Positions 13,000 to 38,313 of a stretch of DNA of 39,660 nucleotides are shown here, in pieces. Under the pieces are notes generated by a model that saw nothing but the letters and a program-made list of their open reading frames with translations, made no database searches and was not told the DNA's origin. The DNA lies in NCBI GenBank assembly GCA_016865865.1, contig VGOC01000023.1, forward strand, positions 1-39,660, read 5' to 3'. The DNA is from Chloroflexota bacterium. Lineage in GTDB: Bacteria; Chloroflexota; Anaerolineae; Anaerolineales; UBA11858. The position numbers and the translations under genes are program-made. Positions within the stretch are counted from its first letter, which is position 1, and every line of letters starts with the position of its first letter.

Positions 13000-13120
13000 G
13001 TGTTCACTGAAAAAACTCAAGAAAGAGGGGGCGGGGCAGCATATATGGGGGTGCGTGCTGCGCACGCACCCCCATATATGCCGCCCCGAATCCTCTACTT
13101 GTGGTTTTTTCAGTGGTCTC
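13000..13120. mobile_element. Family A palindromic element, copy 2 (121 bp)
   Basis: Same length as copy 1 (2010-2130). The ends are GTGTTCACTGAAAAAACT and, reverse-complemented, GAGACCACTGAAAAAACC. The core palindrome has arms of GGGGCAGCATATATGGGGGT type, with one arm base differing from copy 1. The stop codon of the hydrolase gene on the minus strand (GAC CAC TGA) lies inside its terminal repeat. Confidence 0.8.
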
Positions 13121-19738: not shown

Positions 19739-19868
19739 GTTACTGCTCAGGCTATCGATTGGAAATCGAGGCTGCGTTGCGAAACCGACCTTCGTCGGTT
19801 GAAAATCCAATCCACGAAGGTGGATTTCGCACGCCAGCCTCGAATTTATTCGATGGCTGAGCAGTTAC
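19739..19868. mobile_element. Family B palindromic element, copy 1 (longer variant)
   Basis: Inverted ends GTTACTGCTCAGGCTATCGA and, reverse-complemented from the right, GTAACTGCTCAGCCATCGA. Homology between the arms continues inward (ATCGAGGCTG, TTGCGAAA, CCACC). The centre carries CCGACCTTCGTCGG rather than the A6/T6 hairpin of the other copies. It truncates the NYN gene on its right. No flanking duplication is visible. 19657-19738 holds nothing recognisable. Confidence 0.72.
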
Positions 19869-22179: not shown

Positions 22180-22389
22180 TTACATGGGGATAACGTTGGC
22201 AGCCTGGGGTCCTTTTTGGCCGTCTTCTACAGAGAATTCGACCTGCTGGCCCTCTTCGAGGTTGCGGAAGCCTTCGCCCTGGATGGCGGAATAGTGGACA
22301 AAGACATCCTTGCCACTTTCGCGCTCGATGAAGCCATAGCCTTTGCTTCCATTGAACCACTTGACCGTACCGATGACACGTTCAGACAT
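22180..22389 (-). CDS. Cold shock protein (CspA family)
   Basis: The product has 69 residues, the standard length. RNA-binding motifs are KGYGFI (RNP1) and DVFVHYSAI (RNP2); the opening [15 protein letters not shown] is diagnostic. It is a single-stranded RNA/DNA-binding chaperone. The ATG at 22389 follows AAGGAG; an upstream in-frame ATG at 22512 would add 41 unrelated residues across the terminator of the upstream gene and is rejected. Leader of unknown length, possibly regulatory as in other csp genes. Confidence 0.96.
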
Positions 22390-22455
22390 TTTTTTACTCC
22401 TTATTGAACTATATCTGATATTACTTCGAGGTGCTCGATCGTTCCATCGGAGGGT

Positions 22456-22494
22456 CAAAAAAAACAGCTCAAGGACCTTGCCTCGAGCTGTTGT
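22456..22494 (-). terminator. Terminator of the RRM protein gene
   Basis: On the minus strand ACAGCTC pairs with GAGCTGT (22464-22491; the inner part AGG/CCT extends the stem) and is followed by a run of eight T. It lies about 100 bp after the RRM gene stop and ahead of the cold shock gene. Confidence 0.8.
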
Positions 22495-22595
22495 CTTTCT
22501 TCCTGCGTCCAACGAAAACTTTCTGGCATCCTACGGGGAGAGAATATAGCATCGAAACCCTCCGCCGTCAAGAGAGCAAATCACCGGAATCAATC

Positions 22596-22907
22596 TTAAT
22601 ATTTTTCTCGATCATCATGGCGCCGACTACCTTGACGCCGCCTTGGTCCTCCACTATCTTCCTTGGGGCGTGCAATATTGACTCGCAAAGCACGGCCTTC
22701 TAATTCGAACTCGTTGAACATCCGAATAGCCTCTTCGGCCTCGGCCTGGCTGCTCATCTCCACAAAGCCGAATCCTTTGGAACGGCCAGAGTTGCGATCT
22801 TTGATCAAGACCGCTGACTCCACAGTTCCAGCCTGGGAAAACATCTCTTCCAGGTCGCTCTCCTTGGTGGAGTAAGGCAGATTTCCAACATACAACTTTT
22901 TCTCCAT
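22596..22907 (-). CDS. RNA-binding protein, single RRM domain
   Basis: The product has 103 residues. It is an RRM with RNP2 KLYVGNLPY and RNP1 KGFGFVEM, followed by a basic Gly/Arg tail (RRRQGSRRHDDREKY), the layout of the glycine-rich RNA-binding proteins found in Cyanobacteria and Chloroflexota, often cold-induced. The ATG at 22907 follows GAGGAGAAG; the upstream ATG at 22958 has no such site. Neighbouring the cold shock gene on the same strand, it may share a role in RNA structure at low temperature, although each gene has its own terminator. Confidence 0.93.
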   Translation of the reverse strand: MEKKLYVGNLPYSTKESDLEEMFSQAGTVESAVLIKDRNSGRSKGFGFVEMSSQAEAEEAIRMFNEFELEGRALRVNIARPKEDSGGPRRRQGSRRHDDREKY

Positions 22908-23103
22908 CTCTTCTCCTCTTGACCAATTGGTCGAAAAAAATACTGCCAAATCATACATGGATTCGGCAGCAGTACCACAATACCCAGATATGACAGTGAT
23001 ATTGTATCACCAATTGGGGCAGAAATAGCAAGGGCTGTCGCGAACCAGTTGGCTTCAACCAACCGCGCGCTTTCAGCCAGGGATTCATCTCCTGGATTTG
23101 ATC

Positions 23104-23162
23104 TTGACGTGGATTGCTTTCTGTCATATCATGTACGTATGATGATTAGATATATGTACGTA
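23104..23162 (+). promoter_or_regulatory. Promoter and direct-repeat operator of the Phd/PIN operon
   Basis: -35 TTGACG (23104-23109), 17-bp spacer, -10 TATCAT (23127-23132). ATGTACGTA occurs twice, at 23131-23139 and 23154-23162, each with a palindromic TACGTA centre: a likely antitoxin operator. A family B element is inserted immediately after the second operator copy. The rest of 22908-23103 shows no gene. Confidence 0.72.
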
Positions 23163-23166
23163 AGGA

Positions 23167-23278
23167 GGAACTACTCAGCCGAACGGAGAAACTCTCGAAA
23201 AAAGGGTGTGCGCAGGGGGCTACGCCCCCTGCGCACACCCTTTTTTCGGGTAAATCCGTTCGATGGCTGAGCAGTTAC
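23167..23278. mobile_element. Family B palindromic element, copy 2 (112 bp, with 8-bp target duplication)
   Basis: Ends GGAACTACTCAGCC and, reverse-complemented, GTAACTGCTCAGCC. The core is a perfect hairpin CGAAAAAAGGGTGTGCGCAG... with mirrored TTTTTTCG (23196-23248), shaped like a bidirectional terminator. CGTAAGGA flanks it on both sides (23159-23166 and 23279-23286), a target-site duplication. It separates the toxin-antitoxin promoter from the antitoxin gene. Confidence 0.85.
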
Positions 23279-23293
23279 CGTAAGGATATATTT

Positions 23294-23530
23294 ATGAAAA
23301 CGATCACCCCAACTGAACTGAGGGCCAATATCTACAATCTACTCGAAGGCGTATTGAGCACAGGTATTCCTCTCGAAATCAAGAAGGGAGATAAAAAACT
23401 AAAAATCGTGTCTATCGAGAAGGTAGATAAATTCCAAAATCTAATCCATAGGCCCAACGCCATCCAGGGAGATCCCGAAGAACTGGTTGCGATTCATTGG
23501 GCAGATGAGGTGCACCTTGATCTACCTTGA
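23294..23530 (+). CDS. Phd/YefM-type antitoxin
   Basis: The product has 78 residues. The start MKTITPTELRANIYNLLEGV is the Phd/YefM DNA-binding fold, followed by a conserved-looking strand pair (LEIKKGDKKLKIVSI) and a short toxin-binding tail. It would neutralise the PIN toxin encoded next and repress its own promoter. The ribosome site AAGGA is part of the duplicated target CGTAAGGA beside the family B element. It overlaps the toxin gene by about 26 bp. Confidence 0.82.
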   Translation: MKTITPTELRANIYNLLEGVLSTGIPLEIKKGDKKLKIVSIEKVDKFQNLIHRPNAIQGDPEELVAIHWADEVHLDLP

Positions 23531-23891
23531 TACGCACATCGTCGTGTGGTTGTATGCAGGATTGATCGAAAAATTCAGCCAGCCAGTCAAAAACCTCATC
23601 AATGAAAACGAGATCTCCATCTCGCCCATCGTTCACCTTGAATTGCAGTATTTGTTCGAGATTCATCGGGTGAAAGACAACGCCAATGCCATCATAACGG
23701 ATCTATCGAATCGCATCGGCCTCCAGGTTTGCCAGAAGGATTTCGACGCCATCGTCAGCCAGGCAATGGCTTTTTCGTGGACGCGTGATCCCTTCGATCG
23801 GGTAATCGTAGCCACCGCAGCTCTCAAGGACAGCATTCTAGTTTCCAAAGATCGCAGCATACTCGAGAATTACATTCACGCCAGATGGTAA
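23505..23891 (+). CDS. PIN-domain toxin (VapC type)
   Basis: The product has 128 residues from the ATG at 23505. PIN landmarks: LIYLDTHIVVWLY with the first catalytic Asp, SPIVHLELQYLFE with a Glu, and DPFDRVIVATAAL with the third acidic cluster, then LVSKDRSI. It is a Mg2+-dependent RNase, VapC-like. An ATG at 23487 is also in frame, but 23505 opens right at the first strand. The stop region overlaps the start of the AddB-like gene (ATGGTAA), so toxin-antitoxin and helicase genes form one transcription unit. Confidence 0.88.
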   Translation: MRCTLIYLDTHIVVWLYAGLIEKFSQPVKNLINENEISISPIVHLELQYLFEIHRVKDNANAIITDLSNRIGLQVCQKDFDAIVSQAMAFSWTRDPFDRVIVATAALKDSILVSKDRSILENYIHARW

Positions 23892-25981
23892 ATCACCCCC
23901 TTACCCCTGAGCAACTCGCCGTTATCGCTTCCCCTCTCGACGCGAAAATCTTCCTCGAAGGACACGCCGGCGCGGGCAAGACCACTGCCGGGATGGAGCG
24001 CCTCTTATCCCTCTTCGAAGCTGGTATCCCAGGCTACCAGATCCTGCTGCTCGTCCCACAGCGAACCCTGGCGACGCCCTACTACGACGCGTTACAAAGC
24101 CCCACCGCCGCTGCAGGCGGCTCAGTGACCGTGCTGACCATCGGCGGCCTGGCCAAACGCATGGTGGAGCTCTTCTGGCCGCTGATCTCCGCCGAGGCTG
24201 GTTTCGCCCACCCCAACCGCCCCCCGAACTTCCTGACCCTGGAGACCGCCCAATATTTCATGGCTCGCCTGGTGCGCCCGCTGCTGGATCAAGGCTTCTT
24301 CGAGTCGCTCACCATCGAGCGCAACCGCCTCTACAGCCAGATCCTCGACAATCTCAACAAGGCTGCCGTGGTCGGCTTTCCCCATACCGAGATCAGCCTC
24401 AAGCTCAAGAGCGCCTGGGCCGGCGATCCCGGTCAGGCCCATGTCTACGAGGACGCCCAGCACTGCGCCGATCTCTTCCGCGCCTACTGCCTGGAGCGCA
24501 ACTTGCTGGATTTCTCTTTGCAGCTCGAAATCTTCCTCGAGCATCTCTGGCCCGCGCCGATTTGCCGCGATTATCTCGTGGAGAACTACCGTCACATGAT
24601 CGTGGATAATCTGGAGGAGGATGTCCCGGTGACGTTCGATCTGCTGCGAGAGTGGATTCCCGAATTAGAATCGGGGCTGTTCATCTACGACCTCGAGGCT
24701 GGTTACCGCCGATTTATGGGCGCCGACCCCCAGACGACCTACCAAATAAAAGAACACTGTGACCAGACGGTCACATTCTTCGAGTCGTTCAGTTCCTCGG
24801 AAGAGATGTTGAGCGTTGGATACGCCCTCGCCCAGTCCCTCCACCCGGAAAAAGAACCCCCCTCCCTTCATCCTTCCGCCCTCCCCCTTCATCCTTCCGC
24901 CTCCCACTACTACCCCCAAATGCTGGATTGGGTCGTCGAGCAGATCGCTGCCCTGGTCGAGGAGGGTACACCCCCAGGAGAGATCGTCGTGCTGTCGTCT
25001 TTTCTCAGCGACGCTTTGCGATTCTCGCTGGCCGAACGACTCGATGGGATGGGCATCCCCACCTGCTCCCACCGCCCCTCGCGCTCCCTCAGGGAAGAAC
25101 CCGCGACGCAGGCCCTGCTGACCCTGGCCGCCCTGGCTCATCCCCAATGGGGGCTGTCCCCCTCGAAATTCGACCTGGCCTATGCGCTCATCCAGGCCAT
25201 TGAGGGGTTGGATTTGGTGCGCGCCCAACTGCTCACCGAGATCGTCTACAAAGAACGCGACGGCGCACTCACCCCCTTCGATCAGATCAACCCGGAAACC
25301 CAGGAACGAATCACGTATCAACTCGGCAACCTCTACCAGGAATTGTATCGCTGGCTCAATGCCTATACGCAGGGCGCGCCGGGAGAACTGGATCATTTCT
25401 TCAGCCGCCTCTTCGGGGAAGTGCTCTCGCAGCCAGGCTTCGGCTTCCATGTTGACTATGACGCCGGGGAAGTCGCCGCCAACCTGATCGAGTCTGTGCG
25501 TAAGTTCCGCTGGGCGGTGGGCGAGAGCCTGGAGGCCGAGGGCATCTCCTTGGGCAAAGAGTATCTCCAGATGGTCGCTGATGGCGTCATCGCCGCGCAA
25601 TATATCTATAGCTGGCAGACCCAGCCTGAGGACGCCGTCTTCCTGGCCCCGGCGTACACCTTCCTGATGCGCAACCGGCCAGTCGAATACCAGTTCTGGC
25701 TGGACATCGGCTCGCGCGGCTGGTACGAGCGCATTCGCCAGCCGCTCACCCATCCCTACGTGCTCAGCCGGCATTGGGAGCTGCACCGCCCCTGGACGGA
25801 CGCCGACGAATACGACGCCAGCCGCGATTCCCTATACCGGCTGGCGCTGGGCCTGATCCGCCGCTGCCGCAGCGGCATCTACCTGGGGTTGAGCCAGTTG
25901 GGAGAACAGGGTTACGAACATAAGGGCCTATTGTTGAAAATCATTGACCGCGCGCTTTATTCAGTAAGCAGTGAGCAGTAG
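23885..25981 (+). CDS. AddB-like helicase-fold subunit, without nuclease domain
   Basis: The product has 698 residues. Walker A is intact (LEGHAGAGKTTAGMERL) and LLLVPQRTLATPYYDAL follows, as in AddB/UvrD-like proteins. The Walker B region reads MIVDNLEEDVP instead of DExQD, and no helicase motifs V-VI of active UvrD are apparent, matching the catalytically silent helicase arm of AddB. AddB normally ends with a Fe-S nuclease domain; here the protein stops and that domain is encoded separately at 29089-30012. Residues around 318-340 hold a short insertion, HPEKEPPSLHPSALPLHPSA, from a DNA tandem repeat. The C-terminal SVSSEQ derives from the repeat at 25970. Presumed role: DNA-end processing in recombination repair. 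Confidence 0.78.
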   Translation: MVNHPLTPEQLAVIASPLDAKIFLEGHAGAGKTTAGMERLLSLFEAGIPGYQILLLVPQRTLATPYYDALQSPTAAAGGSVTVLTIGGLAKRMVELFWPLISAEAGFAHPNRPPNFLTLETAQYFMARLVRPLLDQGFFESLTIERNRLYSQILDNLNKAAVVGFPHTEISLKLKSAWAGDPGQAHVYEDAQHCADLFRAYCLERNLLDFSLQLEIFLEHLWPAPICRDYLVENYRHMIVDNLEEDVPVTFDLLREWIPELESGLFIYDLEAGYRRFMGADPQTTYQIKEHCDQTVTFFESFSSSEEMLSVGYALAQSLHPEKEPPSLHPSALPLHPSASHYYPQMLDWVVEQIAALVEEGTPPGEIVVLSSFLSDALRFSLAERLDGMGIPTCSHRPSRSLREEPATQALLTLAALAHPQWGLSPSKFDLAYALIQAIEGLDLVRAQLLTEIVYKERDGALTPFDQINPETQERITYQLGNLYQELYRWLNAYTQGAPGELDHFFSRLFGEVLSQPGFGFHVDYDAGEVAANLIESVRKFRWAVGESLEAEGISLGKEYLQMVADGVIAAQYIYSWQTQPEDAVFLAPAYTFLMRNRPVEYQFWLDIGSRGWYERIRQPLTHPYVLSRHWELHRPWTDADEYDASRDSLYRLALGLIRRCRSGIYLGLSQLGEQGYEHKGLLLKIIDRALYSVSSEQ

Positions 25982-26116: not shown

Positions 26117-28351
26117 ATGACCGACTTCCTCCCCCGCCCCGCTCAACAGGCCGTCCTGGAATACACCGGCGGCACGATGGGCATCTCCGCCGTCCCTGGC
26201 AGCGGCAAGACCTGGACGCTTTCGGCGCTGGCCGCCCGGCTGATCAGCGAAGGATGCCTGCAGCAAGACCAGGAAATCCTGATCGTCACGCTGACCAACT
26301 CGGCGGTAGATAACTTCGCTGCACGCATCGAGGGCTTTCTACGACATCAGGAGAGGCGCCCCTTGCTGCCCTACTACCGCGTTCGCACATTGCATGGTTT
26401 ATCTCACGACATCGTGCGCGATCGCCCCGAGCTGGTGGGGCTGGATTCCAACTTCCAGATCCTCGACGAGCGCGAGGCTAACGCCATCCGCGATGAGGTC
26501 GCCGCCGCCTGGCTCAGGGTCAATCCCTACGCCCTGGACGACTATCTCGACTCCGAACTCGACGAAGGCCGCCGCGATTGGGTGCGCCGCCAACCCCTTG
26601 TCGAGCAGGTCAAGAGCATCGCGCTGAGCTTCATCCGAACGGCCAAGGATATGCAGCTCACCCCAGAAACCCTGCGCCGCCAACTGGATACCCTGCCGCT
26701 TCCCCTGCCCCTTGCGGAGATGGGCGCGGCCATGTACAGCGACTACCAACGCGCCCTGGCCTACCGCGGGGCGGTTGATTTCGACGATCTCATCCGCCTG
26801 GCGCTACAAGCCCTGCGCAGCGATGATGACCTGCTGAACCGACTTCGAGAGATGTGGCCTTTCATCCTGGAAGATGAAGCCCAGGATAGCAGCAAGCTAC
26901 AAGAGGAAATCTTGCGCCTGCTGGCCGGCCCCTCAGGAAATTGGGTGCGCGTCGGCGACCCCAACCAGGCGATCTACGAATCCTTCACGACCGCTGATCC
27001 ACGCCACCTGCGCCAATTCATGAGTGTGGCCGATTTTCCCCAAGAACTGCCCAACTCCGGACGCTCCACTCGAAGCATCATGGATGTAGCCAACTACCTG
27101 ATTGATTGGGCGCGCGGCGAACACCCCATCATCGAGGCGCGCGACGCCCTGGATTTGCCGCATATCCTGCCGACTCCGGAGGGGGATCCCCAGCTCAATC
27201 CGCCCGATGCACCCGAGGGGATCCACCTGATCGAGATCAGATTCACTCCCGAGGCTGAAATCCTGGCTGTGGCCGATTCCATCGAAAGGTGGCTGGGGCA
27301 GCACAGCGAGGAGACAATCGCCGCGCTGACGCCACGCAATGTGCGCGGCTTCGCCCTCAACGACGAACTGCGCCGCCGTGGGATCGAGACCGTAGACAGC
27401 CTGCTGCGTAGTTCCAGCTCGACGCGCTTCACCGCTGGCGCGCTGGGCAACATCCTGCACTATCTCGCTGATCCGGGGTCGGCGCGCAAGCTGGCCAGGG
27501 TCTATCGCGTCTGGCGGCGGGCAGATCGGGGGGACTCTGACTTGTGGAAGCAGGTCGAAGCTACGGCCAAAATTTTGGGGGGGTGCAATCACGTCGAGGA
27601 TTTCCTGCACCCCGGCCCGGGAGGCGATTGGCTGGACGATCTCCGGGAGCAAGATATCCTCTCGGGGGAGCTGGACCAACTCGAAGAATTCCGGCTCGTC
27701 CTGTCGAGGTGGCTGAAAACCATCGAGCTGCCCATAGACCAGATGGTCCTGACTCTATCCCAGGAATTATTCACCAGCCCCAACGATTTAGCGATCTCCC
27801 ACAAATTGGCCGTGATGTTGCGGCGCGTCCGCAACATGCACCCGGAGTGGCATCTGCCCGAACTGACCGGCGAGCTGGCTGTGATCGCGAAGAACGAACG
27901 CCGCTTCCTGGGCTTCAGCGAGGACGACACCGGCTTCGACCCGGATAAGCATAAAGGCAAGGTAGTCATTTCGACTATCCACAAAGCCAAGGGATTGGAG
28001 TGGGATCGGGTTTATTTGATGTCGGTCAACAATTATGACTTTCCTTCGGGGATGGAGTACGACAACTATATCCCTGAGAAGTGGTTCGTGCGCAACCGCT
28101 TGAACCTGGAGGCTGAAACCCTGGCGCAGTTGGAGGCCGCTTTTTCGCGCGACGCCTATGAATGGTACGCCGAAGGCGGACCGACCTACGAGGCGCGTAT
28201 GGAATACGTGCGCGAGCGGCTGCGCTTGCTTTATGTAGGCATCACCCGCGCCAGGAAGGAGTTGATCATCACCTGGAACACTGGGCGAAGGGGAGATCTG
28301 CAAGCGGCGATTCCGTTGGTGGCGCTGCAAGCGTTCTGGAAAAACAAGTAG
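26117..28351 (+). CDS. UvrD/Rep-family superfamily 1 helicase (AddA-like, without nuclease domain)
   Basis: The product has 744 residues with a full motif set: Q-motif RPAQQAVLE, Walker A AVPGSGKTWTL, VTLTNSAVDNFAARIEG (Ia), RTLHGLSHDIVRD, FILEDEAQDSSK (Walker B), VGDPNQAIYESF (III), NSGRSTRSIMDVANYLI (IV), VISTIHKAKGLEWDRVYLM (V) and LLYVGITRARKELIITW (VI). It is thus an active 3'-5' DNA helicase by motif. AddA usually carries a C-terminal nuclease domain; this one does not. It sits between the AddB-like helicase and the RecB-like nuclease, and is best read as the motor subunit of that complex. Confidence 0.93.
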   Translation: MTDFLPRPAQQAVLEYTGGTMGISAVPGSGKTWTLSALAARLISEGCLQQDQEILIVTLTNSAVDNFAARIEGFLRHQERRPLLPYYRVRTLHGLSHDIVRDRPELVGLDSNFQILDEREANAIRDEVAAAWLRVNPYALDDYLDSELDEGRRDWVRRQPLVEQVKSIALSFIRTAKDMQLTPETLRRQLDTLPLPLPLAEMGAAMYSDYQRALAYRGAVDFDDLIRLALQALRSDDDLLNRLREMWPFILEDEAQDSSKLQEEILRLLAGPSGNWVRVGDPNQAIYESFTTADPRHLRQFMSVADFPQELPNSGRSTRSIMDVANYLIDWARGEHPIIEARDALDLPHILPTPEGDPQLNPPDAPEGIHLIEIRFTPEAEILAVADSIERWLGQHSEETIAALTPRNVRGFALNDELRRRGIETVDSLLRSSSSTRFTAGALGNILHYLADPGSARKLARVYRVWRRADRGDSDLWKQVEATAKILGGCNHVEDFLHPGPGGDWLDDLREQDILSGELDQLEEFRLVLSRWLKTIELPIDQMVLTLSQELFTSPNDLAISHKLAVMLRRVRNMHPEWHLPELTGELAVIAKNERRFLGFSEDDTGFDPDKHKGKVVISTIHKAKGLEWDRVYLMSVNNYDFPSGMEYDNYIPEKWFVRNRLNLEAETLAQLEAAFSRDAYEWYAEGGPTYEARMEYVRERLRLLYVGITRARKELIITWNTGRRGDLQAAIPLVALQAFWKNK

Positions 28352-28398: not shown

Positions 28399-28668
28399 AT
28401 GACCACACTTCAAATCCGCAATAAAGGCACAATTACCTTCCCCGCCAGCATGCGCCGAAAATACGCCCTTGGCGAGGGATCAGTGCTGTCGCTGATCGAT
28501 CTGGGCGAGGGCGTTTTCCTGCTAAAACCATTCCGCTCGAATATCGACGAATTGGCCGACAAAATCCGCCTGGAATTGGAAGCGCAGGGGGAAACACTCG
28601 AAACAATGTTGACCTGCCTCCGGGAGGTGCGGGAAAACTATGCCGCTGACGAATCTCCCCCGGCTTGA
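28399..28668 (+). CDS. AbrB/MazE-type antitoxin
   Basis: The product has 89 residues. The N-terminus TLQIRNKGTITFPASMRRKY is the swapped-hairpin AbrB/SpoVT fold (RxKGxITxPxxxR). The C-terminal helices (IDELADKIRLELEAQGE) would bind the toxin. GGAGAG precedes the ATG. A TATAAT at 28352-28357, just after the helicase stop, may be its own -10, but the -35 is poor. It overlaps the following PIN gene by 29 bp. Confidence 0.85.
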   Translation: MTTLQIRNKGTITFPASMRRKYALGEGSVLSLIDLGEGVFLLKPFRSNIDELADKIRLELEAQGETLETMLTCLREVRENYAADESPPA

Positions 28669-29092
28669 GGTCTTTCTGGATACCAGCGTTATGATTGCCG
28701 CCGTAATGTCTCCAACCGGCGGCGCCCGGCTTTTGCTCCACATGGGAGAAGCGGGGATAATTCGGCTAATCACGGGAAAAAGTGTCATCCAGGAAGCCGA
28801 CGAAGTTCTGCGCCGCAAAGCCGCCCACCTGCTCCCCCTGTTGGCCCGGCTGATGGATGCCGCTCGAATCGAGATCAGCAAGCTACCATCAGCGACAAAC
28901 ATCCAGGTCGCAGAGCAAATTATCGAATATCCCCCGGACAGATTGGTTCTTGCAGAAGCAATACAATCCAATGCTGATTGGTTCGTCACCCACGATCGGG
29001 AGCACTTTCTGAACAATCCCAAAATGAGCAGACTCCCCTTCCGGACCGGATCTTCGGGCGATTTGCTCGTATGGGTTAGACAATCATCATGA
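28640..29092 (+). CDS. PIN-domain toxin
   Basis: The product has 150 residues. PIN pattern: VFLDTSVMIAAVMSPTGGAR (first Asp), GKSVIQEADEVLRRK (Glu), PPDRLVLAEAIQSNADWFVTHD (Asp cluster and last strand). Likely a Mg2+-dependent RNase paired with the AbrB-type antitoxin. Its stop overlaps the ATG of the nuclease gene (ATGA), so the pair is translationally wired into the helicase-nuclease operon. Confidence 0.87.
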   Translation: MPLTNLPRLEVFLDTSVMIAAVMSPTGGARLLLHMGEAGIIRLITGKSVIQEADEVLRRKAAHLLPLLARLMDAARIEISKLPSATNIQVAEQIIEYPPDRLVLAEAIQSNADWFVTHDREHFLNNPKMSRLPFRTGSSGDLLVWVRQSS

Positions 29093-30012
29093 CTCTGCTC
29101 AATAACTTTCAATTCAGTCAAAGTTCACTGCAAGATTACGTTGATTGCCAGCGGCGCTTTCAATTGCGCTATCTCCAGCAGCGCGCCTGGCCCGCGGTGG
29201 AAGCCGAACCGGCCATGGACAACGAACTCTTTTTGCAGCGCGGTTCGCAGTTCCATCACATGGCGCATCAATACTGGCTGGGGGTGCCGGCGCAGAATAT
29301 TGCCGATCAGGTCGAGGGGGATGAAGTTCTGAGCCGGTGGTGGGGCAACTTCACCGATCCAGACCTGGGAGGTTTTGCGCAGCACTCCGAGAACGGCGAG
29401 GAGAGAAATCTCCCAGGTCTCATTCATCCCGAAATCAGCCTCTCGGCTCCTATCGGCGATCACCGGATTATGGCGCAGTATGACTTGCTAATCATTAATA
29501 CCCTTAGGGTCTCCGAGGAAAACCTGGAAAATAAAGATGCTCCGAAAGACCCTAAGGGTTTCCGCGCGACGATCTACGATTGGAAGACCTCGACCAGGCT
29601 GCCAAAACGGGAATGGTTGATCCAACGCTTGCAGACTCGCGTCTATCCCTATCTCTTGGCCCGCGCAGGCGCGCAGTTCAACGGGGGGACTCCAATCCCG
29701 CCCGAACAGATCGAGATGATCTACTGGTACAGCGACTTCCCCGATCTGCCGGCGCGCTTCCCCTACAGTCAGGGACAATTCGAGGAGGATGGCGCCTATC
29801 TCACTGGCCTGATCGAGGAGATTAGCAACGTGGGGGAAAAGGATGCACCCCTCACAGATGAGGAACGCCGCTGCCAGTTCTGCGTCTATCGCTCTTTGTG
29901 CAACCGCGGCGTCGAGGCGGGGTCGCTGGCCGAACTCGAGGGGGATGGGGAGGCCGAAGAGGGTTTCGTTTTGGACCTCGACTTCGAGCACATCGCCGAG
30001 ATCGAGTATTAG
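29089..30012 (+). CDS. RecB/AddB-type PD-(D/E)XK nuclease with Fe-S cluster cysteines
   Basis: The product has 307 residues. SQSSLQDYVDCQRRFQLRYL opens with the first cluster cysteine; FLQRGSQFHHMAHQYW is the helix preceding the active site; the catalytic core is ATIYDWKTSTR (D-x-K) with RLQTRVYPYLLA (QxxxY motif). The C-terminal CQFCVYRSLC repeats the C-x2-C-x5-C spacing of the AddB 4Fe-4S site. In AddB this domain closes a protein of about 1150 residues; here it stands alone and would complement the two helicase genes upstream. It was probably part of an AddB that became split. Confidence 0.88.
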   Translation: MTLLNNFQFSQSSLQDYVDCQRRFQLRYLQQRAWPAVEAEPAMDNELFLQRGSQFHHMAHQYWLGVPAQNIADQVEGDEVLSRWWGNFTDPDLGGFAQHSENGEERNLPGLIHPEISLSAPIGDHRIMAQYDLLIINTLRVSEENLENKDAPKDPKGFRATIYDWKTSTRLPKREWLIQRLQTRVYPYLLARAGAQFNGGTPIPPEQIEMIYWYSDFPDLPARFPYSQGQFEEDGAYLTGLIEEISNVGEKDAPLTDEERRCQFCVYRSLCNRGVEAGSLAELEGDGEAEEGFVLDLDFEHIAEIEY

Positions 30013-30037
30013 CGATAAATATCACCGAAGAGACGCA

Positions 30038-30149
30038 GAGTACACAGCCAAACAGAGAAATTCCCGAAAAAAGGGTGTGCGTGGGGGTGCTGCGCACCCC
30101 CACGCACACCCTTTTTTCGGGCTAATCCGTTCGATGACTGAGCAGTTAC
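30038..30149. mobile_element. Family B palindromic element, copy 3 (112 bp)
   Basis: Same length and plan as 23167-23278. The right end is GACTGAGCAGTTAC; the left end is diverged (GAGTACACAGCCAAACAGAG). Perfect core hairpin CCCGAAAAAAGGGTGTGCGT... mirrored to TTTTTTCGGG at 30063-30121, shaped like a bidirectional terminator. It follows the nuclease gene by 25 bp and could end that operon. No target duplication is visible. Confidence 0.8.
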
Positions 30150-36391: not shown

Positions 36392-36433
36392 GTCCAATCG
36401 CGCTCCGCCCCAGGCATGGTATACTCCCTTCGT

Positions 36434-37267
36434 ATGATCGAAGCACTGGCCCTCGCATCCCAGCTTGCCCAGGAGACCGGCGTCCTGCTGATGGGATTTT
36501 ATCAACCCGGCGGCGTCATCACATCCCTGAAAGATGACCGCTCGGCCGTCACCGAAGCCGATCTGGCTGCCGACCAGCTCATCCGCGCCCGCATCGGCCA
36601 GCACTTCCCAGACGATGGCCTGCTTACAGAAGAAGACAATACCATCTATCCCAGGGAGAAGCCTGCCGTGTGGGTCATTGATCCGCTGGATGGCACGACC
36701 AATTTCAGCCTGGGCCTGCATTATTGGGGTGTGTCCATCGCCCGCCTGGTACACGGAGAACCGGACACCGGCGCGCTTTACTTTCCGATGATCGGAGAAT
36801 TATTCACCGCCCAACGCGGCCAGGGCGCTTACCTGAATGGGGATCGTCTGCGGGTCAAAAGTCCAGACAAAAACCGACCCTTCACCTTCTTCACCTGCTG
36901 CTCTCGCACCTTCAAGCAGTATGAGATCAAAGTCCCTTACAAGGCTCGCATCCTGGGATCAGCGGCTTATGGATTGACCACCGTCGCGCGCGGGAGCGCC
37001 GTACTTGCCTTCGAGGCGACTCCTATGGTTTGGGATTTTGCCGCCAGTTGGCTGGTGATTCGGGAGGCAGGAGGGGTGGTTCGACCTCTTGAAGAGAATC
37101 ATGTCTTCCCGCTCTCTCCAGGGACAGATTACGCCAGCAAGAGTTTTCCCATTCTGGCAGCGGCTACACTTGAACTGTGGGATGAAGGTCGGAGCAAGAT
37201 CATTCTAAAAAAGGGTGTGCGCAGGGGGCGTAGCCGCTTTGCGTGCGCACACCCTTTTTTCGGGTAA
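36434..37267 (+). CDS. Inositol-monophosphatase-family phosphatase with repeat-derived tail
   Basis: The product has 277 residues from the ATG at 36434. Metal-site motifs: LLTEEDNT (Glu pair), WVIDPLDGTTNFS (DPLDGTTN) and MVWDFAASWLVIREAGG (WDxAA). The family removes phosphate from inositol 1-phosphate, fructose bisphosphate or 3'-phosphoadenosine phosphate; the substrate is unknown. The last 22 or so residues (KKGVRRGRSRFACAHPFFG) are translated from the hairpin of a family B element, so the natural stop was lost. No ribosome site precedes either ATG (36416 or 36434). A TATACT at 36420-36425 would place the transcript start at about 36432, almost leaderless for the ATG at 36434, but no good -35 is seen. 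Confidence 0.88.
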   Translation: MIEALALASQLAQETGVLLMGFYQPGGVITSLKDDRSAVTEADLAADQLIRARIGQHFPDDGLLTEEDNTIYPREKPAVWVIDPLDGTTNFSLGLHYWGVSIARLVHGEPDTGALYFPMIGELFTAQRGQGAYLNGDRLRVKSPDKNRPFTFFTCCSRTFKQYEIKVPYKARILGSAAYGLTTVARGSAVLAFEATPMVWDFAASWLVIREAGGVVRPLEENHVFPLSPGTDYASKSFPILAAATLELWDEGRSKIILKKGVRRGRSRFACAHPFFG

Positions 37268-37292
37268 ATCCGCTCGATGGCTGAGCAGTTAC
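37207..37292. mobile_element. Family B palindromic element, copy 4 (left end lost)
   Basis: AAAAAAGGGTGTGCGCAG... mirrored to TGCGCACACCCTTTTTT forms the usual core, here with a few mismatches near the loop. The right end GGCTGAGCAGTTAC is intact; the left terminal repeat cannot be recognised. It provides the stop of the phosphatase gene, and its hairpin could terminate that transcript ahead of the aldo/keto reductase gene. Confidence 0.75.
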
Positions 37293-37317: not shown

Positions 37318-38313
37318 ATGGAATACCGTTATCTTGGAAAATCTGGCTTACAGGTATCGGCGCTTTCCTTTGGCGCATGGGTCACCTTTGGAGATCAGAT
37401 CGGCGAAGAGGTAGCCCTGGAGATGATGAAGGCCGCCTACGACGCCGGCGTCAACTTCTTCGACAACGCCGAAGTGTACAGCCAGGGCAAGGCCGAAACC
37501 ATCATGGGCAATGTCATCAAAAGGACCGGCTGGAAGCGTCCCGACCTGGTAGTCTCGACGAAAATCTACTGGGGCGGCGAAGGGCCTAATGACCGCGGGC
37601 TTTCCCGCAAGCACATCGTCGAAGGCCTGGACGCCTCCCTGGCGCGCCTGCAAATGGATTACGTTGATCTGGTTTTCGCTCATCGTCCTGATTTCCATAC
37701 ACCCATGGAAGAGACTGTGCGGGCTTTCGATCATGTCATCGCCCAGGGCAAAGCTTTCTACTGGGGCACCAGCGAGTGGAGCGCCCAGGAGATCATGGAG
37801 GCCTACGCTGTCGCACGTCGTGAACATCTGATCCCGCCTCTGATGGAACAGCCCCAATACCACATGTTCCACCGTCAGCGCGTGGAGGTCGAATATGCCC
37901 CTCTTTACGAAGAGATCGGCCTGGGCACGACGATCTGGAGCCCGTTGGCCAGCGGCTTGCTGACCGGCAAATACAATCAAGGTATGCCCGAGGGCACGCG
38001 CGCTTCACTAGAAGGTTACGAGTGGCTACACAAACATTTCGTGGATGAAGAAGCTATTCGAAATATCCAAAAGGTCGGCGAGATAATGCCGATAGCCGGG
38101 GAATTAGGCTGCACGATGCCGCAACTGGCCCTGGCCTGGACGTTGAAGAATCCCAACGTCAGCACCACCATCACCGGCGCGTCGAAAGTTGAGCAAGTGG
38201 TAGAGAACATGAAATCCATTAACTTCGTGGACAAACTCACCCCCGAGGTGATAGAACGGATCGAGGCGATTCTTGACAACAAACCCCAACCACCGACCGA
38301 TTGGCGCGAATAG
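37318..38313 (+). CDS. Aldo/keto reductase, AKR6 (Kv-beta-like) branch
   Basis: The product has 331 residues, full length. It is an NADPH-dependent carbonyl reductase with a TIM barrel. Catalytic residues fit the family: [14 protein letters not shown] (Asp and Tyr), VVSTKIYW (Lys) and VFAHRPD (His). The opening [19 protein letters not shown], with [12 protein letters not shown] and [10 protein letters not shown], places it near the potassium-channel beta-subunit-like group. GGAGG precedes the ATG. It probably has its own transcript, following a family B hairpin. Confidence 0.94.

Follow-up and report, generated by a model that had tools for sequence, protein, structure and literature searches.

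A MITE with IS66/ISBst12-type ends and a terminator-shaped hairpin lies between the promoter and the antitoxin gene of a toxin-antitoxin operon in a Chloroflexota bacterium

If a mobile element that carries a terminator-shaped hairpin lands between a promoter and its first gene, what becomes of the genes behind it? This question is raised by a toxin-antitoxin (TA) operon of a Chloroflexota bacterium (Anaerolineae, Anaerolineales, UBA11858; assembly GCA_016865865.1), which we analysed within the 39,660 nucleotides of contig VGOC01000023.1 (positions 1 to 39,660 of the forward strand, hereafter the window). A promoter scan returned one sigma70-like site within 22900-23960, the TTGACG-17-TATCAT of the TA operon (23104-23132, +). 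It is followed on the same strand by two operator-like repeats ATGTACGTA, the second (23154-23162) 23 nt from the first (23131-23139). Domain matches identified an antitoxin gene (PhdYeFM_antitox, PF02604; 23294-23530, +) and a toxin gene with an intact frame (PIN domain, PF01850; 23517-23891, +). The two reading frames overlap and the promoter carries repeats that are conserved in a same-genus genome (G003), as is typical of type II TA operons.

Between the second repeat and the antitoxin start codon lies a 112-bp element without coding capacity (23167-23278, +). The initial annotation had described an exact duplication of CGTAAGGA around it, and both duplicates were indeed found, the left one at 23159-23166 and the right one at 23279-23286 (+); the distance between them is exactly 112 bp. 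Each includes a Shine-Dalgarno-like AAGGA, and it is the right one that provides this motif ahead of the ATG. The element starts with GGAACTACTCAGCC (23167-23180, +) and ends with the inverted repeat GTAACTGCTCAGCC (23265-23278, -); the inverted repeats are thus present, although the left end is mutated in this copy (GGAACTAC for GTAACTAC). The hairpin with A6 and T6 flanks was likewise recovered: the arms of its core (23196-23248, both strands) form 25 perfect pairs (23196-23220 with 23224-23248), and the two tracts at its base lie at 23198-23203 (A6) and 23241-23246 (T6). The entire element folds into a single long hairpin (-84 kcal/mol, z -14.5 against shuffled sequences).

According to the initial annotation, removal of the element and of one duplicate would restore a normal leader. 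Such a leader exists in nature. In G003 the same antitoxin-toxin pair (L060, 81% DNA identity) is preceded by the empty site TTGACATGG...TATCATGTACGTACGATAATATAATATATGTACGTAAGGATAGATTATG, with the -35 TTGAC and the TATCAT kept, both repeats exact and the antitoxin start conserved, so that the reconstructed leader corresponds to a real allele. A more distant TA copy in G011 is also free of the element; its promoter is similar, its antitoxin start conserved, and its repeats read ATGTACGTG and ATGTACGCA. Judged by sequence comparison with G003, the antitoxin (dN 0.11, dS 1.34) and the toxin (dN 0.10, dS 0.79) are under purifying selection across the whole divergence from that genome. A miniature inverted-repeat element (MITE) with IS66/ISBst12-type ends is inserted between an intact TA promoter-operator region and the antitoxin start codon. 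Since the promoter and both operators lie together upstream of the insertion, and the duplication keeps the Shine-Dalgarno motif by the ATG, initiation, autorepression and the translation start should all survive.

The element belongs to a large family. All copy counts refer to the window's own genome, a draft of 3.25 Mb. At least about 40 copies were among the matches listed in a similarity search of this genome, and the end pattern AACTACTCAGC, with one mismatch allowed, gave 378 matches versus 51 for the reversed control, from which we estimate about 160 two-ended copies. The copies studied, with the stretches around them, were taken from the best matches and from the exact left-end matches on the larger contigs, and thus are not a random sample. 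Among these loci we found 106 end-pairs, mostly 112, 114 or 117 bp long, 78 of which had exact 8-bp duplications; together with the fold of the window copy, this argues against a chance arrangement. The 14-bp consensus ends are GTAACTACTCAGCC on the left and GTAACTGCTCAGCC on the right. Short length, lack of coding capacity, inverted ends, target duplication and multiple copies define a MITE family. Compared with the subfamily master common to L002, L003 and L004, the copy in the TA leader has four changed positions; two of its bases are unique to it and none of the four falls in the hairpin core. An exact 20-base left-end pattern had no match in a scan of named genomes, and a description of the family was not found in the literature searched, which does not prove that none exists.

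Further repeats of this kind occur in the window. A second, degenerate copy of the 114-bp type with a decayed left end (30036-30149) sits between the stop of a PD-(D/E)XK nuclease gene (30012) and the next ORF (30195), and the two copies together bracket the TA-helicase-nuclease genes. A third, truncated at its left end (37206-37292), lies right before the ORF at 37318, and the upstream ORF (36416-37267) terminates within it. A different MITE, 130 bp in length, whose ends are of this type but whose interior is another one, was found at 19739-19868 of the window, where no clear duplication was seen, and at L112:484-613. L028, L086, L094 and other 117-bp copies form a subfamily with an asymmetric apex (ACGCAAAGCGG), whose loops are present in both orientations, as though the centre of the palindrome flips. 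Motifs resembling GAGTTTTTTTCAGTGAACAC were also observed at unrelated intergenic spots of the same genome (window 13000-13018, -; L100; L123).

Which transposase could have moved the MITE? Its GTAA ends and 8-bp duplication indicate the IS66 family, and both features are those of the ISBst12 group, as a comparison with ISDge4 illustrates. This member of the group has the ends GTGACTACTCAGCA and GTAACTGCTCAGCA, an 8-bp repeat and the same A-versus-G difference between left and right ends as the MITE, but it encodes a 449-aa transposase whereas the MITE is non-coding (PMC12898284). The MITE would accordingly be non-autonomous, with its mobility supplied by a transposase from the ISBst12 group (single-ORF) of the IS66 family. 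A candidate mobiliser is a 1549-bp element in G003 (L068:577-2125), whose single ORF (about 469 aa) contains DDE_Tnp_IS66 and zf-IS66 domains and which bears GTAACTACTAAGCC at either end, identical to the MITE end at 13 of 14 positions; a target duplication was not found around this copy (2/8). The only IS66 transposase found in the window's own genome is truncated and has a different end (GTAACTACCTACCC), so the mobiliser may have been lost or may be missing from the assembly.

The empty sites revealed a target rule. They favour the two-fold symmetric WWWNNTA-N8-TANNWWW, with at least one flanking TA in 45 of 78 sites (background 6%) and TA on both flanks in six (background 0.1%), the window site among them. 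The landing site in the leader of the Phd/YefM-PIN operon, ATATATGTA-CGTAAGGA-TATATTT, is a near-ideal target. While 20% of random positions are intergenic, this was true for 76 of 85 pre-insertion sites, the other nine lying near gene ends; these classes derive from simple gene calling by codon usage, in which small genes (the antitoxin included) are overlooked and some starts misplaced. A preference for AT-rich targets may explain part of the intergenic bias. We did not observe the enrichment between convergent genes that co-opted terminators would be expected to show (5 of 76 versus 12.4% expected), nor an orientation bias relative to transcription (20 copies in the same, 28 in the opposite direction).

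By shape, the hairpin is a terminator on both strands, with a 17-bp GC-rich core stem followed by U6. A GC-rich stem with U6 is the textbook arrangement of a strong terminator. A consensus terminator scanner misses it, probably owing to the position of the U tract inside the stem. The sole Rfam matches, to miRNA models, stayed far under the gathering scores, and we rejected them as generic-hairpin matches. Elsewhere in the genus and the order, mostly in Anaerolineales/Anaerolineae MAGs, related hairpins keep CCGAAAAAAGGGTG...CACCCTTTTTTCGG around changing palindromes, and several have recognisable IS66-type ends. Across 23 chosen cores 99.1% of the cells pair, a figure inflated because the cores were selected for forming hairpins and then trimmed manually; both sides have changed in 18 of the 24 pairs, and G-U occurs in only two cells. 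Within the window's genome, 43 of 52 copies of the 112-bp type have a perfect stem (20 pairs checked). The scarcity of G-U pairs would be compatible with a constraint that applies to the two strands alike or to the DNA itself, as well as with correction of the palindrome when it is replicated.

What could be affected downstream is more than the TA pair. A UvrD-like helicase ORF (23885-25981, +) overlaps the toxin stop, followed by a second UvrD helicase (26117-28351, +), a second PIN-domain protein (PIN_3; 28640-29092, +) and the PD-(D/E)XK nuclease (29089-30012, +), all identified by domain matches. In G001, G002 and G003 the UvrD-like helicase lies only about 90-120 bp after its upstream neighbour, which corresponds to the window gene at 22180-22512 (-), and the TA cassette is missing there. 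G001 and G002 carry a -10-like box, TGGTGTAAAAT, before the helicase. In the window this box is missing, a gene for an RRM RNA-binding protein and the TA cassette fill the leader position, and the helicase ATG falls within the toxin ORF. Given this layout, transcription of the helicase may well rely on the TA promoter. The proposal that the helicase-nuclease operon stands behind this promoter is hence plausible, as opposed to the accompanying claim that transcription stops before the antitoxin, for which we found no support (see below). The RRM gene and TA cassette (22573-23884) are absent from the orthologous place in all three relatives and would have been inserted in front of the helicase, or have replaced what stood there, in this lineage specifically. 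In its own leader the RRM gene has a terminator-shaped hairpin followed by T7 (22941-22971, -), a possible attenuator.

How, then, might the MITE affect transcription? We consider it rather probable that, moved into the TA leader by an IS66 (ISBst12) transposase, it acts as a leaky attenuator that is buffered by TA autorepression. Each transcript from the TA promoter would gain about 120 leader nucleotides, predicted to fold into a single long hairpin whose 3' side carries U6. Partial intrinsic termination would then leave less, though not zero, readthrough into the antitoxin, toxin and helicase-nuclease genes, so that expression is likely lowered by the element. Because TA operons of this type repress themselves, which we assume here from the type of the module and its repeats, reduced readthrough should relieve repression, raise initiation and thereby restore the protein level. 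Such feedback would compensate for an insertion and make a TA leader a tolerant place for one.

The classic arrangement of a GC-rich stem with U6, conserved across relatives, renders it unlikely that transcription passes almost freely and that the hairpin acts only later, as a 5' stabiliser or RNase III/E site, or remains idle. Such passage would be owed to an overlong stem and to pairing of the U tract with the A tract. Some observations would suit it: within the stem A6 is available as a partner for U6, which leaves the U tract not simply single-stranded, copies are widely tolerated upstream of ATGs, and processing of hairpins has been described for other MITEs (PMC10969869, PMC3049150).

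At the other extreme, the element could be an effectively complete terminator, by which both the TA module and the helicase-nuclease operon would be silenced in this strain, in line with the expectation that it should stop transcription before the antitoxin. The stem with U6 is present on both strands, no promoter at the 9-of-12 threshold lies between the element and the ATG, and the helicase's own leader, present in relatives, is gone. However, if copies generally blocked transcription they should be depleted from short tandem gaps, and co-directional gaps of up to 60 bp are instead commoner among intergenic copies (9.2%) than among intergenic positions (1.8%). One sister copy sits between minC and minD, 12 bp before the minD ATG, in a pair that is contiguous and empty in G001, G002 and G005; another separates acetyl-CoA hydrolase from pyk (pyruvate kinase), contiguous and empty in G002 and G003. 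Apart from these conserved pairs, copies also occupy the gaps between OsmC and thioredoxin and between gatB and glutamate dehydrogenase. The cobS-cobU pair was rejected as a conserved-operon case, since in relatives these genes are kilobases apart or on separate contigs. Moreover, the six downstream ORFs are open despite the four substitutions in the element. If one, two, three or four of these arose after insertion, 2.1, 4.2, 6.3 or 8.4 nonsense mutations would be expected, and none was seen; this expectation assumes free drift, some of the four changes may be older than the insertion, and a further promoter may serve the later genes. The TA pair by itself says little on drift because fewer than one nonsense mutation is expected in it. 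Some sister copies may block well, given their stem and U6, and the genes behind them might have other, unrecognised promoters. Taken together, the tandem gaps, the minD and pyk copies and the open frames speak against a full block, which we judge quite improbable.

A rescue promoter at the right end appears very unlikely. Many copies end in a weak -35-like hexamer (TTGGCT/ATGGCT) 18 bp from the TANNWW half-site of the target, and -10 matches of at least 4/6 therefore occur at 19 of 85 right ends versus 3.9 expected from the local background. In the window this yields ATGGCT-18-TATATT with the -10 at 23287-23292, which matches at only 3/6 and 5/6 positions, under the scan threshold; transcription would also start past the antitoxin ATG at 23294 and so could not supply the conserved antitoxin start. 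That the insertion was co-opted as a regulated switch, by anti-termination or signal-sensing attenuation, is suggested by its position in a leader, but is scarcely credible for an element of which about 160 similar copies exist in contexts unrelated to each other and for which Rfam offers only miRNA models far under threshold.

A leaky attenuator of this kind would not be without relatives, and a 2024 review called MITE terminators conceivable (PMC10969869). BIMEs and SPRITE are precedents for attenuating or terminator-like small repeats (PMC3049150). SPRITE of Streptococcus pneumoniae is a dispersed short repeat near genes with the shape of a Rho-independent terminator (18-bp duplex and U-rich tract; PMC3049150), but it is reported to be enriched near the 3' ends of genes, whereas the MITE shows no convergent enrichment and has IS66-type terminal repeats and target duplications. 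BIME/REP insertions in operons have been reported as transcriptional attenuators (PMC3049150); REPs, however, measure 20-40 bp and are associated with RAYT transposases (PMC3733652), in contrast to the IS66-type ends found here. Correia elements (NEMIS/CREE) show that a MITE just past an operon promoter can alter the operon, for example mtrCDE (PMC10969869), but what has been reported for them is promoters, binding of IHF and cleavage by RNase III, and their ends are unlike those of the MITE. MITEAba12, of 113 bp, was assigned to its parent IS in the same way, by shared ends and duplication length (PMC6382973), and differs in its 78% AT, 9-bp duplication and parent ISAba12.

Beyond this locus, IS66-type MITEs might spread a two-strand terminator hairpin across the Anaerolineales, with the perfect palindrome kept despite sequence change. 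They would then serve as mobile attenuators that work in both directions and determine how much many operons are expressed, and insertion into leaders would be tolerable through the TA-N8-TA rule and the preserved ribosome site. We regard this as possible, though doubtful. The same TA leader with the terminator-shaped mobile element (window) and without it (G003) represents a natural before/after pair. On it one can readily study how an attenuator is accommodated by a TA operon that represses itself, and whether operons throughout the genome are tuned by hairpin MITEs. The family, with its roughly 160 copies, some of them between operon-like conserved neighbours such as minC and minD, is well suited to testing how frequently a hairpin of 'perfect' terminator shape does terminate.
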